A DNA stretch of 33,330 nucleotides from a virus. Positions 1-33,330 of the stretch are shown piece by piece. The notes under the pieces were generated by a model that worked only from the letters and a program-made list of their open reading frames with translations, had not been told where the DNA came from and did no database searches. The translations under genes and the position numbers were made by a program. The stretch is taken from positions 1 to 33,330 of IMG/VR virus record IMGVR_UViG_3300047560_001424; one strand, given 5' to 3'. How positions within the stretch are numbered: the first letter of the stretch is position 1; every line of letters starts with the position of its first letter.

Positions 1-774
1 CACGTTTGTAATGTTTCCAGCACTTAGAACAGAATTGTAAACAAGGATTTCTGCGATACCACCATTCCAGAAATCTGAGGATCCGGCCAAGTACCAAGTA
101 CCAACTGACATTGCAGTAGCACTAGACGTTACAGCTGCATTAGTTACTGCTCTCACTACTGACGTTCTATTCAATCGAACAAATGAATTGGCAGCTCCAT
201 TGCCAGCCGATAGAAGCTGGTAAGTATTATTACCAAGCGTTCCAAGCGGTCCTACAGCATAAGGAGTGCCATTATAACCGTTACCACAAGAGAAGAACTC
301 ATTGTTCTGCCAAAAATTAGCGGCTGGGCCTACAACTCCCACTGCTCGACCAGATGTGCCACCTGCAGCAAAGTTATGACCCCAAGCACCTGCGTTAGTC
401 AGGTTTGCCCACACGGTACGAGAACCAACTATAAAAGCCGTGTACTCGCCTAGTGTTGGAGTCGTTGATGTAGTGAGGTAGTCGTTGGTTCCATCAAATA
501 CAATCGTTGGCAAACCATTTTGACCAGAAGCGGTCCAGAGTGGTTTGTTTCCTGTTGTAGCCTGAGAAAAGTGATTGTTGTTACCACTTTGGTCGTTCCA
601 CGTACCAACTAGGTTGCTACCATCCTTGGTAATTCCAGTATCTGCTTTTAACCAAACAGTTAGCCCAGCGATTGTCGTAGGATTAAACGCTGCGACATTT
701 GAGCCACCTGGCTTAGTAATTGCAGTTCCAGCTATTCCAATAATCATGAGTAGCAACCAAACCCAATTAGGCAT
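1..774 (-). CDS. LamG/concanavalin-like adhesin, copy 1 (3' end cut by window edge)
   Basis: The frame is open from an ATG at 772-774 to the window edge with no stop (258 codons). The complete homologue at 32499-33308 shows that 11 residues and the stop are missing. Residues 4-18 form a hydrophobic segment that could be a signal or anchor. It is followed by the pattern ADTGI...W.DQSGN.NHF...NGLP.IVFDG.NDYL (about residues 40-100), which is typical of LamG/ConA-like jelly-roll domains on phage and bacterial surface proteins. This family usually binds carbohydrate; binding here is inferred. The gene starts 1 nt after the stop of the spike-base-like gene, with no clear SD, so translational coupling is likely. 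Compared with the other copy it differs at about 14 residues, mostly within residues 55-98. It may be an assembly variant rather than a second gene. Confidence 0.8.
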   Translation of the reverse strand, partial: MPNWVWLLLMIIGIAGTAITKPGGSNVAAFNPTTIAGLTVWLKADTGITKDGSNLVGTWNDQSGNNNHFSQATTGNKPLWTASGQNGLPTIVFDGTNDYLTTSTTPTLGEYTAFIVGSRTVWANLTNAGAWGHNFAAGGTSGRAVGVVGPAANFWQNNEFFSCGNGYNGTPYAVGPLGTLGNNTYQLLSAGNGAANSFVRLNRTSVVRAVTNAAVTSSATAMSVGTWYLAGSSDFWNGGIAEILVYNSVLSAGNITNV

Positions 775-796
775 CTTAGTATAAAGCTACAATGCT
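1..796. repeat. Left member of terminal repeat
   Basis: Aligns without gaps to 32535-33330 (offset 32534). By hand count there are 57 mismatches (about 93% identity), none in 670-796. Mismatches cluster in 481-612. Confidence 0.9.
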
Positions 797-1033
797 TGTT
801 GCTGTTGTTGCAGCCATAACTCTTGCGGCAAATACTGGCAAAAGAACACCAGCATTAGGAATTGCAATCGTAACAGCAGCGCTATCATCAACGCATTTAA
901 GGCTTAAGTTGCCTGTACCACCAATCCACAAAGCTCTGCAGCCTGTAAGATCAGTAGAATCCGATGGAGTTACAGCCGCAACTTTACGAGCTGAAAAGAG
1001 TGCTCCAGGATTAGAAGGTGTAAAATCTGGCAT
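776..1033 (-). CDS. Spike-base-like small virion protein
   Basis: 85 aa. The layout (FSARKVAAVTPSDSTDL near the start, then a CRALWIGGTG-type strand, then LLPVFAARVMAATTATSIVALY at the C-terminus) matches small all-beta virion proteins annotated as spike base proteins of the RCAP_rcc01079 type, originally named from a gene transfer agent. Such proteins sit where spikes or fibres attach. The assignment is from recalled sequence resemblance, not a search. It lies between a decoration-like gene and the LamG adhesin and stops 1 nt before the adhesin ATG, so it may form the base on which the adhesin sits. The last six codons and stop recur at the right end of the window. Confidence 0.65.
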   Translation of the reverse strand: MPDFTPSNPGALFSARKVAAVTPSDSTDLTGCRALWIGGTGNLSLKCVDDSAAVTIAIPNAGVLLPVFAARVMAATTATSIVALY

Positions 1034-3043: not shown

Positions 3044-4129
3044 CTAATCACCACCAAAACGTCGGCGGAGGTTATCCCGTAAATCTTTTGTTTGTACTCT
3101 TGGCGTCCCACTACCTGCGGACCCAGAGATTGAGCGAGAAGCAGATTTAGCCTTTTGGACTACTGCTTGTTTCTGATCCATTACCGTCTTTGCAGCCATT
3201 GCTTGATTGAGGCTGGAAAAGTTCGGGTTGCCAGCTACTACATAGTTATAAGCGGTTTCTAGGATCTCCTCAGGAGAGCTATACCGACCTGTACTAGTAA
3301 GCGCACTAACGATAGGAGCCATCTCAGCCTCTAACTGCGAAGCTGTTTCCGGATCTCTAAACATAGGTTTAGCCGACATAAAAGATTCTACAGCCCGCTC
3401 GTTATAATAGGCAACGGCAGACTGTTGCTGCTGCTGCTGGTAGCTTTGGAATTTCTCCTCAGCTATACGCTCAGCCTCTTCACGAGTCAGGTAATTTTGC
3501 TGTTGCGGTTGCGGTTGATAATAACCTTGTTGTAACGCTTCTTGCTGGCTAGCTGTTAAATCGTTAATTGATAGGCCATAAGAGTCCAGCCATTCTAACG
3601 CTGTTTGAACTGGGTTGTTTTGCATCGCACGATCCCAAGCGATTGAGCGTTTTGCTATATCACCCAGTGAGATACCTTGCTTTGCGTAATCCAGCTCATA
3701 CTCTTTAATGGTATCAAGCACGCTAGAAGTCTTCTTCTGCATCTGCTCAATTTCTACCATTCTGCGTTGATGATCGCTTCTAAGCTCGTAAGCTCTGCGA
3801 TTCATGTATTGTTGCAACACATGCGCATTGTTTGGAGTTGGATTGAGGAATGCTTCCTTTTCTGCTGCGTTCATATCAGCAGGTGGAACAACCGGAATCC
3901 GTTCAGGCTGCGGTTGTTGCATTTGCTGTGTTGCTGCTGGAGCATTTACTTCTCCAGTAAGTAATCGCTCCTCATCTTTAGCTTCGCTGACGACTTCATC
4001 ATCACGAGCGTCAAATTGCTCATTAAGAGCATCGCGGATGCTTAGTTTTTGTTCTTTTTCTCGTACTGGAGTGACTTCGGTGTCCTGCGGCTCCAATGCT
4101 TCTGTTTCTACTTGTTCTACGTTATCCAT
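3044..4129 (-). CDS. Capsid scaffolding protein
   Basis: 361 aa, highly charged and Gln-rich: an acidic N-terminus (residues 1-60), a Pro/Gln linker, then a long helix-forming middle (about 100-170) and a Gln-run region near 205-240. It ends in a basic tail (KDLRDNLRRRFGGD) of the kind that in scaffold proteins contacts the capsid floor. Location between portal and major capsid genes is the classic scaffold position. An AAAGGA SD precedes the ATG, which overlaps the end of the 105-aa gene by 8 nt. No protease motif was seen. Confidence 0.75.
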   Translation of the reverse strand: MDNVEQVETEALEPQDTEVTPVREKEQKLSIRDALNEQFDARDDEVVSEAKDEERLLTGEVNAPAATQQMQQPQPERIPVVPPADMNAAEKEAFLNPTPNNAHVLQQYMNRRAYELRSDHQRRMVEIEQMQKKTSSVLDTIKEYELDYAKQGISLGDIAKRSIAWDRAMQNNPVQTALEWLDSYGLSINDLTASQQEALQQGYYQPQPQQQNYLTREEAERIAEEKFQSYQQQQQQSAVAYYNERAVESFMSAKPMFRDPETASQLEAEMAPIVSALTSTGRYSSPEEILETAYNYVVAGNPNFSSLNQAMAAKTVMDQKQAVVQKAKSASRSISGSAGSGTPRVQTKDLRDNLRRRFGGD

Positions 4130-13737: not shown

Positions 13738-14334
13738 ATGAGTAAAGAAAACACAATCTATCAAGCATTTGTAAAAGCACAAAAAGCCTTTGGCCCAGCG
13801 CTTAAGACTTCAACAAACCCACATTTCAGGTCTCGTTATGCTGATTTAAGTGCATGTGTTGAGGCTGTAATCGACGCACTTAACGACAACGGAATAGCGT
13901 TAATGCAGACAACCCATCCTTGTGACAATGGCGTAGCCGTTGAGACAATTCTGGTACACGAGTCAGGACAAACCATGACATCTGGAGTTCTACATGTACC
14001 GGCTAGCAAACAGGATGCTCAAGGTTACGGGTCTGCTCTTACGTATGCTCGTAGGTACAGTCTTATGGCAACCTGTGGCATAGCTCCTGAGGATGATGAC
14101 GGTAACCGTGCTTCCACCCATCAACCTCAAACGCCACCACCACCATCGGCTAAAAAATCGAGACTGGTTAAAACCTTTTACGATATTCGGACGCTACCAA
14201 CTGACAAACAGCAAGCGGCAGCAGAATACCTAAAAGGACATAGTTGTGAGTTTAACGAGGCTCTTGGCGTATGGACCTGCCCGATACGACTAGAGAGACT
14301 CGCGGACTACGTTGTTGAGAAGACCAATGGATAA
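13738..14334 (+). CDS. erf: ERF-family single-strand DNA annealing protein
   Basis: 198 aa. The ERF domain spans about 5-125, with the start NTIYQAFVKAQKAF, the FRSRYADLSACVEAV segment and the signature DAQGYGSALTYARRYSL (93-109). ERF proteins anneal complementary strands for recombination and genome circularisation, as in P22. The C-terminal third is Pro-rich, then a separate small basic domain (KTFYDIRTLP...). Strong SD (AGGAGG). A recombinase here fits replication by host polymerase with concatemer formation. Confidence 0.9.
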   Translation: MSKENTIYQAFVKAQKAFGPALKTSTNPHFRSRYADLSACVEAVIDALNDNGIALMQTTHPCDNGVAVETILVHESGQTMTSGVLHVPASKQDAQGYGSALTYARRYSLMATCGIAPEDDDGNRASTHQPQTPPPPSAKKSRLVKTFYDIRTLPTDKQQAAAEYLKGHSCEFNEALGVWTCPIRLERLADYVVEKTNG

Positions 14335-18715: not shown

Positions 18716-18897
18716 CGCTTCTTCTTATCCTTAAGCGACCAAACTTGCGAGACGCCATATAGTACAGCTCCAGAAATTACTGGTGTAGCAGCTTCTGCCA
18801 ATTGATTTGATTCAGCTTCAGATACACCTACGGTAAGCAGTCCACCAGCAGCAAGCGTAAGAAGGTGGCGCACTATCGAGAAGATAAAAAGTTCCAT
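18712..18897 (-). CDS. Putative holin
   Basis: 61 aa. Two hydrophobic segments (SIVRHLLTLAAGGLLTVGV and TPVISGAVLYGVSQVW) are separated by a polar turn, with a KDKKKR tail. The RHLLT..GG.L pattern resembles the Pam3-gp28-type holin family. It is the last gene of the leftward late block and overlaps the secreted Cys-rich gene by 25 nt. It would form membrane lesions that trigger lysis. Confidence 0.65.
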   Translation of the reverse strand: MELFIFSIVRHLLTLAAGGLLTVGVSEAESNQLAEAATPVISGAVLYGVSQVWSLKDKKKR

Positions 18898-19670
18898 GCA
18901 ATTCTCCTTGCTTCATTCATCACATTAAACGATGACCTACAATCTCTGCGGGTCGGTCTTATAAAACTACCAAAGTTACAATTCATCCAACCAGACCAAT
19001 AAAACCGCACGTCGCAATCTTTAGTCTGTTCAGCAAAAGCCTTTAAGTCAACCGAAGAATTTGCCTCTGAACCGTCCATATCAGCGATACACGGTCGAGA
19101 TACATTGGGTCTAAGTCCGTGCCGCTCACAGACAAATCCGGGCAAGCATGGCTGTAAGTGCGGATTATCAACCAGCACACAAGCAGGCAAAGCAACACGT
19201 ACAGCGTCAAGCATAGTTTTTCTAGCCGGTCCATACAGATCACACTCCAGACATGGCGACACATAACAGCTCACAGTGCCTTTAGACGATTCAATACGAC
19301 GCTTAAAACGGCTTAAGATTTGATGGTATTTGCGAAACAGTGGAGAGGATGGGTTGGCCATTAATCGACTGGCAGAAGCCTTTGTGTGGCCGTATAAGAC
19401 GTCATGGCGCTGACATCTGCCATTACGCATACAAGGTGAGTTAATCAGATGCACTCTGATAACCTTGTCGTTACGAGTCTGTAGTATTTGATTGGCGCAA
19501 GGACACTCACGGCCAAACGAGTTTTCAAGCCATCCAGTTACAATCGGACGTGTACCAAAGGATGATACAGTTGCTTGACAGTCCCAAGTCTTGTTGCAAA
19601 GACCAAGATAACTAACGCCTTGCGCTTGTGCTGTAGCCATCAATGCTAACAACACAAGGATGATTCTCAT
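18873..19670 (-). CDS. Secreted Cys-rich protein in lysis cassette
   Basis: 265 aa with a clear Sec signal (MRIILVLLALMATAQAQG; likely cut near residue 16). The mature part has 16 cysteines, an even number consistent with disulfides in the periplasm. Notable segments are YLGLCNKTWDCQ, TGWLENSFGRECPC, VSCYVSPCLECDLYG and WSGWMNCNFGSF. No lysozyme, amidase or peptidase signature is visible. Position between a holin and a coiled-coil membrane protein suggests a lysis role, possibly a signal-exported endolysin of an unrecognised fold. Scattered aromatic and acidic residues would also allow a glycosidase. Confidence 0.55.
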   Translation of the reverse strand: MRIILVLLALMATAQAQGVSYLGLCNKTWDCQATVSSFGTRPIVTGWLENSFGRECPCANQILQTRNDKVIRVHLINSPCMRNGRCQRHDVLYGHTKASASRLMANPSSPLFRKYHQILSRFKRRIESSKGTVSCYVSPCLECDLYGPARKTMLDAVRVALPACVLVDNPHLQPCLPGFVCERHGLRPNVSRPCIADMDGSEANSSVDLKAFAEQTKDCDVRFYWSGWMNCNFGSFIRPTRRDCRSSFNVMNEARRIAWNFLSSR

Positions 19671-30876: not shown

Positions 30877-31730
30877 GTACCAAATACTGCAGTTCCAGCT
30901 CTTGCGAATAGTTCCGCACGAGTATGGCCACCTGCATAGATAATCTTGCTTACTTGTTGCCTAGAATAGTCTTCGTTCATCTGAACAAGGTAACGAGGCT
31001 GAATCGTATCCAGTCCATGAATCTCTGCAAATCGCTCTAGCATACCTTGCTCAAGTGTTTTCTGATTGAAGACAGTTTCATCAGTATCAGCAAGGAAGTC
31101 GCTATATGCACCACTGTAGTACGTCCATGTAACGCCACCATCTGAAACCGATCCAGTAGTATGCGTAGGAGGCGTAGTACCAGAGGTTCCTCCAGCAGTA
31201 GTTTGATAATAGTTACCGTTATAGAACGTATAAGCATTAGCAGAATACGATGTGCTTGCTGCCCATGTTGCAGGTCTTACAGAGCGATCTGCAATATACT
31301 CAAAGATAATCACGTTACCATCTTGAGATGCACTTGGAGTTGGCGAAATAAGCAACTCGTTGTTGCTCAACCCACGAATTTGAAACCGTTGGTAAACAGT
31401 CGTATTAAGACCATATCCACGAATCTCAGCATACTCTTGAGGAGACATTGGCCCAAGGATTCTCCAACGTGTTGAGCTATTCCAGAAGGTTTCATAGTGA
31501 TACCATGAAAAGGCTGCGGGCAGCGGATAACTAGCCTGTCCCGCAACCAATGTAATAGAACCGGACGCATACAATTGCGGCCAAGGATATTGATCCGCAA
31601 TGTCATGGTTTATGCGTTGTGCAATAGTCCGCAGTTGTTTAGTAGTCATTTCTGTTGAGTTGGTCACACCACTTTCGACAGTGTATCCAGCCTCGTTAGC
31701 TACGTTTTGTACTGCGGTTTGCAAACTCAT
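30867..31730 (-). CDS. Head-to-tail adaptor (gp4/tubular A-like)
   Basis: 287 aa. The helical N-terminus (AVQNVANEAGYTVE...LRTIAQRINHDIADQYPWPQL) then ITLVAGQASYPLPAAF, and the tail with YLVQMNEDYSRQQVSKII match podovirus adaptors that sit under the portal. An insert at about 155-205 (AYTFYNGNYYQTTAGGTSGT, then TTPPTHTTG and GVTWTYY) resembles a small carbohydrate-binding (CBM5/12-like) module and is absent from minimal adaptors. ATGA overlap with the upstream gene. Confidence 0.8.
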   Translation of the reverse strand: MSLQTAVQNVANEAGYTVESGVTNSTEMTTKQLRTIAQRINHDIADQYPWPQLYASGSITLVAGQASYPLPAAFSWYHYETFWNSSTRWRILGPMSPQEYAEIRGYGLNTTVYQRFQIRGLSNNELLISPTPSASQDGNVIIFEYIADRSVRPATWAASTSYSANAYTFYNGNYYQTTAGGTSGTTPPTHTTGSVSDGGVTWTYYSGAYSDFLADTDETVFNQKTLEQGMLERFAEIHGLDTIQPRYLVQMNEDYSRQQVSKIIYAGGHTRAELFARAGTAVFGTWT

Positions 31731-32419
31731 ACTTTTCTTGGTCTACCTCGACGCTTAGGCGCTTCAGCTTGAACTTCTTCAACTTCGGAAACTTCAACAT
31801 CCTCAACTACTGGATCGATAGAACGGATCACCTCCTTTCGACGTGAACGAAGATCGGTACCTTCGTTTCCTTCTACTCGTTGCAACAACAATTCTACTTG
31901 CTCTTCCAATTTAGCTGTTCGTTTTTGCTCTCGCTCAAGCTGCTGCTTCAATGCAACAACATTGAACTGCGATGAATTTGCAGCCTCAAGCCAATCCTTA
32001 GCCATTTTTACAAAACGACCGGTAGGTCCAAGGCGTCGCTTGATTTCATCGTTTGCGTCTGCAAGCTGTTCAACAGTCTTAAATCCAAGATGCTGTAACT
32101 CACGAAGCGTTGAGCCGTTCATCAATGGCCACTCAGCGAGAGGCGTGCCACTAACAACAGCTTCGCTGCCAGACTTAAATGCTGCGTACAGCTCTGGATA
32201 ATCAGCTACGTCTTGCGGCTCAATCTTACGAACCGTTTCATCTCCACCTGGATATTGAATAGAAATAGATGGAATTTCATCAAAGATTGCTCGACCTGCT
32301 TGAAGGCTCTTTTCTTTGTTTTCATTGTAGGAATTAAAGAAACGGACATTCGCGCCATGAAAACGTTTGCGCGGTTGCATCTGTCCATTCATTAAATTAT
32401 TCCAGTCAATTTGTGCCAT
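31727..32419 (-). CDS. Virion-associated protein with C-terminal AT-hook
   Basis: 230 aa. The N-terminal part (NVRFFNSYNENKEKS...SISIQYPGGDETVRK) and the GTPLAEWPLMNGSTLRELQH / LGFKTVEQLADANDEIKRRL region resemble a protein found near the capsid or adaptor genes of several phages, the latter part being helix-hairpin-helix-like. A coiled coil (about 155-185) follows, then an acidic linker and KRRGRPRKV, an AT-hook that binds the minor groove of AT-rich DNA. SD GAGGAGACAAT. Confidence 0.65.
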   Translation of the reverse strand: MAQIDWNNLMNGQMQPRKRFHGANVRFFNSYNENKEKSLQAGRAIFDEIPSISIQYPGGDETVRKIEPQDVADYPELYAAFKSGSEAVVSGTPLAEWPLMNGSTLRELQHLGFKTVEQLADANDEIKRRLGPTGRFVKMAKDWLEAANSSQFNVVALKQQLEREQKRTAKLEEQVELLLQRVEGNEGTDLRSRRKEVIRSIDPVVEDVEVSEVEEVQAEAPKRRGRPRKV

Positions 32420-32498: not shown

Positions 32499-33308
32499 TC
32501 ATGGGGTTTGCCACTTACTTCTCAAGTAATTCTCCACGTTTGTAATGTTTCCAGCACTTAGAACAGAATTGTAAACAAGGATTTCTGCGATACCACCATT
32601 CCAGAAATCTGAAGATCCGGCCAAGTACCAAGTACCAATTGACATTGCAGTAGCACTAGACGTTACAGCTGCATTAGTTACTGCTCTGACTACTGACGTT
32701 CTATTCAATCGAACAAATGAATTAGCAGCTCCATTGCCAGCCGATAGAAGCTGATAGGTATTATTACCAAGCGTACCAAGCGGTCCTACAGCATAAGGAG
32801 TGCCGTTATAACCGTTACCGCAAGAGAAGAACTCATTGTTCTGCCAGAAGTTAAAGGCTGCACCTACAACTCCCACTGCTCGACCAGATGTACCAGCAGC
32901 AGCAAAGTTATGACCCCAAGCACCTGCGTTAGTCAGGTTTGCCCACACGGTACGAGAGCCAACTATAAAAGCCGTGTACTCGCCAAGTGTTGGAGTTGTT
33001 GATGTAGTGAGATAATCGTTGGTTCCATCGAATACAATCGAAGGCAACCCATTCTGAGCCGATGCAGTATAAAGTGGCTGATTGGCTCCAGTAGCTTGAG
33101 CGAAGTGGTTATTGTTACCGCTCTGGTCATTCCATGCGCTAACAAGGTTGCTACCATCCTTGGTAATTCCAGTATCTGCTTTTAACCAAACAGTTAGCCC
33201 AGAGATTGTCGTAGGATTAAACGCTGCGACATTTGAGCCACCTGGCTTAGTAATTGCAGTTCCAGCTATTCCAATAATCATGAGTAGCAACCAAACCCAA
33301 TTAGGCAT
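32499..33308 (-). CDS. LamG/concanavalin-like adhesin, copy 2 (complete)
   Basis: 269 aa. Hydrophobic N-terminus (residues 4-18), then a LamG/ConA-like domain with WNDQSGNNNHF and NGLPSIVFDGTNDYL, a central GAWGHNF and EFFSCGNGYNG part, and a C-terminal GGIAEILVYNSVLS / IENVENYL-type ending common to this family. Probably binds surface polysaccharide. The N-terminal hydrophobic stretch is unusual for a virion fibre and might be a buried anchor. See copy 1 for divergence. Confidence 0.85.
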   Translation of the reverse strand: MPNWVWLLLMIIGIAGTAITKPGGSNVAAFNPTTISGLTVWLKADTGITKDGSNLVSAWNDQSGNNNHFAQATGANQPLYTASAQNGLPSIVFDGTNDYLTTSTTPTLGEYTAFIVGSRTVWANLTNAGAWGHNFAAAGTSGRAVGVVGAAFNFWQNNEFFSCGNGYNGTPYAVGPLGTLGNNTYQLLSAGNGAANSFVRLNRTSVVRAVTNAAVTSSATAMSIGTWYLAGSSDFWNGGIAEILVYNSVLSAGNITNVENYLRSKWQTP

Positions 33309-33330
33309 CTTAGTATAAAGCTACAATGCT
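32535..33330. repeat. Right member of terminal repeat
   Basis: Same orientation as 1-796. The last 127 bases (33204-33330) are identical to 670-796. Confidence 0.9.
33310..33330 (-). CDS. 3' end of a spike-base-like gene (cut by window edge)
   Basis: The last six codons (SIVALY) and the TAA are identical to 776-796. Either the sequence loops back to position 797 or a second copy of the gene continues beyond the window. Confidence 0.6.
   Translation of the reverse strand, partial: SIVALY

Follow-up and report, generated by a model that had tools for sequence, protein, structure and literature searches.

A 132-bp divergent patch between two alleles of a phage tailspike-like gene is most readily read as an imported tract

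The window (the whole 33,330-bp stretch analysed here) carries a tailspike/adhesin gene at both of its ends, and the two copies differ most strongly within a patch of 132 bp. As read from the sequence, the copies are alleles from one sample of a single locus at which the contig ends meet, and the patch is very probably a short tract imported from the gene of a related phage. It most likely represents ordinary tailspike mosaicism, a common kind of gene shuffling, and not fast adaptive mutation. On this reading, mismatching contig ends become readable as two natural alleles, and adaptive-looking clustered variation in an adhesin serves as a worked case of imported sequence under purifying selection.

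Two copies as alleles of a single slot

Window positions 1–796 align without gaps to 32535–33330, with 57 mismatches by pairwise alignment of the contig ends. The complete copy, allele B, is a 269-aa open reading frame on the minus strand (32499–33308), the true start of which may be Met10; allele A, on the same strand (1–774), is truncated by the contig end and retains 258 of the 269 residues. The overlap extends to both contig ends exactly, includes the end of the neighbouring gene, and finishes on the right with exactly 127 identical bases, positions 33204–33330 being the same as 670–796. Such a run is a k-mer signature: a metagenome paper using JGI data lists metaSPAdes k-mers of 33, 55, 77, 99 and 127 (PMC7171226). 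The identical run at the left end is 78 bases long, short of 127; a different cause must have cut the contig there, perhaps a third variant. Near-complete relatives have exact end overlaps, of 127 bp in one record (G004) and of 80–123 bp in some others. The end pattern is that of de Bruijn assembler output from a circular or circularly permuted genome with two strain variants at one place, and the record probably holds the whole genome, whose length would be about 32,534 bp.

To place the copies in context, relatives were collected by a query with the 230-aa neighbour, g230 (31727–32419, minus strand), which yielded 77. Their gene order is scaffold, MCP, g159, g135, TF85, a variable slot, g230 and the 287-aa g287, with some genes absent or replaced in some relatives; the junction that separates the window's two ends lies inside their contigs. 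One edge of the slot is g230; the other is TF85, an 85-aa tail-fibre-like gene (776–1033, minus strand; phrog_12296, E 1.3e-14; synteny). Among 115 loci spanning both edges, some of which are overlapping pieces of single contigs, the slot holds one gene in 97, two unlike genes in 12 and none in 6, and in none of the 115 does it hold two adhesins. Across 14 larger or near-complete records, the adhesin occurs at a single place in 10 and is absent from 4. Because relatives hold at most one adhesin per slot and per near-complete genome, we take the copies in the window to be alleles.

The presence of both copies in one contig is also what tandem adhesin paralogues with local divergence would produce, but their overlap touches both contig ends and takes in part of a neighbouring gene, two adhesins share no relative's slot, and the end signature fits assembly of a circular map; we regard paralogy as highly improbable. 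The microdiversity in the phage population that the initial annotation had proposed is thus upheld as two alleles of one slot, on the strength of the single-slot relatives and the end signature.

The virus record itself is classed as linear, at 33,330 bp, though its ends overlap imperfectly. A second record, G006 (the record of L124; also L254 and L255), has first and last 538 bp that overlap with 14 mismatches and a leading identical run of exactly 127; that imperfect overlap falls in a gene resembling window 18873–19670.

Predicted fold of the tailspike/adhesin

The tailspike/adhesin gene matches phrog_10356, a virion structural family (E 3.9e-22, PHROGs), and its protein has no Pfam match at E 0.01. 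An AlphaFold model (mean pLDDT 78.6, pTM 0.81) matches concanavalin-A-like jelly-roll domains over residues 27–266. Among phage proteins it matches the tailspike of cyanopodophage Pan3 (PDB 9vyh chain p), with a Foldseek E of 1.7e-8, a VIA Z of 18.5 and an rmsd of 3.8 over 223 residues. The two are alike in having 269 residues and a concanavalin-A-like fold across nearly the whole model, but they share just 15–17% identity, and fold likeness by itself is no proof of function. From the model, the product is probably a LamG-like/concanavalin-A-like adhesin, which would have a role in host attachment and might thereby affect host range. No host was found by capsid search in genomes. Elsewhere among the virion genes, window 26428–28068 matches phrog_5107 (amidase) over its full length, a label that may be wrong.

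Clustering of the differences

The divergent patch spans 481–612 in allele A and 33015–33146 in allele B, both on the minus strand, and covers codons 55–98. It contains 34 of the 57 mismatches, exactly the count first given for it, and exceeds chance in both tests applied. When 57 mismatches were placed at random in 2,000 trials, no 132-bp stretch received more than 22. Codon shuffling of the allele pair, which leaves domain-wise rate differences in place and should be read accordingly, reached a log-likelihood ratio of 10.4 at most, whereas the observed value is 31.3. The maximum-likelihood patch lies at about 507–610, with 32 mismatches.

The initial annotation had described the flanks as nearly identical, which is true of one side only: residues 1–54 differ once between the alleles, residues 99–258 differ 22 times. 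Part of the identity on the right-hand side is built in, because the assembler needs an identical final 127 bp to join paths. Among the 22 differences is a second, smaller cluster at 313–364 on the minus strand (codons 137–154), which includes the replacements P150A and A152F.

Substitution patterns and the case for selection

The initial annotation had called many of the changes nonsynonymous and suggested a positively selected binding surface, with point mutations piling up in residues 55–98 as the host receptor changes. The gene probably encodes an adhesin, and nine replacements in 44 residues is above chance (p 1e-4), but the substitutions point the other way. Replacements form a minority, with 9 of the 28 changed codons nonsynonymous (about 11 of 34 by substitution), a share that does not differ from the one elsewhere in the gene (Fisher p = 0.77). 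Within codons 55–90, pS is 0.86 and pN 0.13, compared with 0.11 and 0.012 elsewhere; dN/dS in the patch is far under 1 for the allele pair. Codons with synonymous changes alone are equally clustered, 19 of 36 falling within 44 of the 258 codons (p 1e-6). The patch also occupies the best conserved block of the family, with a mean majority share of 0.61 versus 0.33–0.37 in residues 99–240, and maps to predicted strands 55–59, 79–85 and 88–94 with the intervening loops. Such synonymous saturation is what a stretch brought in from an older allele would show, and adaptive mutation acting locally would not produce it. With the tracts of other allele pairs lying elsewhere in the gene, we consider positive selection a very improbable cause.

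A patch stitched from unrelated reads by the assembler deserves consideration here, as the contig terminates at a strain bubble, a setting prone to mis-joins, and the mismatching end overlap is itself an assembly effect. Both alleles are nevertheless intact open frames that differ mostly at third positions, and independent relatives from other samples show tracts of like kind. Beside the patch no identical run exceeds 58 bp, which is not long enough for the assembler to have crossed from one of these alleles to the other at a 127-mer. An assembly error or chimera is very unlikely, if marginally less so than selection or paralogy.

Diversity-generating retroelements usually act on adhesin genes in which variation is concentrated, and to that extent the gene resembles a target. 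Targeted adenine mutagenesis of this kind is the least probable of the explanations weighed and close to negligible: the genome gives no match to the reverse transcriptase family PF00078, which leaves such an element unsupported, and no template repeat occurs elsewhere in the window. Nor is there an adenine bias, the changes being spread over all base types, as had been said of them from the start, and mostly synonymous. Positive selection, tandem paralogues and a retroelement were each rejected on evidence from substitutions, slot and gene content.

Probable recombination tracts in relatives

Similar tracts are common among relatives. Of 54 allele pairs with under 25% divergence, 85% are significantly clustered beyond codon shuffles, with tracts all along the gene; the pairs share members and are not independent. 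This distribution led us to reject a shared hypervariable surface at residues 55–98. Two triplets show donor-like alleles for relatives' tracts. In L107, residues 6–29 have 0 of 72 differences from L219 and 27 of 72 from L207, from which L107 differs elsewhere at 17 of 714. In L187, residues 112–169 differ from L101 at 8 of 165 and from L192 at 50 of 165, with the reverse elsewhere. The initial suggestion of a locally exchanged segment therefore agrees with what we see, as the patch behaves like an imported tract, with a sharp synonymous shift and similar tracts in relatives.

Neither protein search nor exact DNA pattern returned a donor for the window's own patch from collections that may omit the nearest records; the best protein match to the allele-A patch has 69% amino-acid identity. 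The window has no DNA match among isolate phages. Breakpoints guided by conserved motifs were also considered and rejected, as breakpoints are not better conserved than random positions (p 0.28).

Mosaicism limited to the tailspike was likewise rejected. Clustered divergence appears in other genes in 23–54% of relatives' pairs, less often than in the tailspike, except for the scaffold gene. Because other genes show clustering, the tailspike is mosaic-rich but not alone. In the scaffold-like gene (window 3044–4129), clustering is commoner than in the tailspike, at 92% of the relatives' pairs tested.

An Erf-like annealing protein as candidate recombinase

The window encodes an Erf-like single-strand annealing protein at 13738–14334 on the plus strand (phrog_2324, E 2.5e-44; PF04404, E 1.8e-25), a plausible candidate for a recombinase that could act on diverged sequences. 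Erf was detected in 7 of 15 records, some of which are probably incomplete. In the mechanism that we propose, co-infecting related phages would swap short homologous stretches, and a relative whose copy of the gene is more diverged would donate the 132-bp tract by homologous (homeologous) recombination. The phage's own Erf-like protein, acting during co-infection, would be the likely agent. For this particular pair, recombination is the cause that we infer from the clustering, the saturation, the single slot and the relatives' tracts, all of which were observed directly.

Rad52-like recombinases such as Erf and Red-beta tolerate divergence and make mosaics in coliphages, with median lengths of 131–494 bp (PMC3945230). 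The present case is alike in its short fragments between diverged phages and in the Erf-family annealing protein carried by the phage. That work used E. coli phage assays, whereas ours reads sequences from an uncultured group, in which no donor for the window's tract was found. It is also conceivable, though we hold this only tentatively, that Erf-driven gene conversion in tracts of about 70–170 bp steadily reshuffles the tailspike within the population, so that recombination would contribute far more variety than mutation.

Exchange of the tailspike cassette between backbones

Exchange is also evident at a larger scale, in a cassette that includes a 135-aa gene, g135 (1081–1488 in the window), and a 159-aa gene, g159 (1538–2017), both on the minus strand and both identified by synteny and cassette exchange. 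Between L109 and L125, g159, g135, TF85 and the tailspike are 96–99% identical, in contrast to 82% for MCP, 66% for scaffold, 65% for g230 and 73% for g287. By sequence comparison, the whole cassette would represent a recent transfer between backbones that are otherwise 65–82% identical, and it documents, for a phage group that is widespread but uncultured, a tailspike cassette able to change backbone. In L101 and L102, scaffold, capsid, g230 and g287 are more than 99% identical and the tailspike 83%. Modular exchange of tailspikes and receptor-binding proteins (PMC10408124, PMC10579305) is alike in that host-recognition genes change backbone while their neighbours stay; here exchange also appears at a scale of about 70–170 bp within a small single-domain adhesin. 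The slot before g230 holds quite different genes in L078, L099, L112, L115, L142 and L147, and its alternative contents comprise a 105-aa gene, pairs of genes of about 200 aa, and large genes of 605–774 aa accompanied by a second gene.
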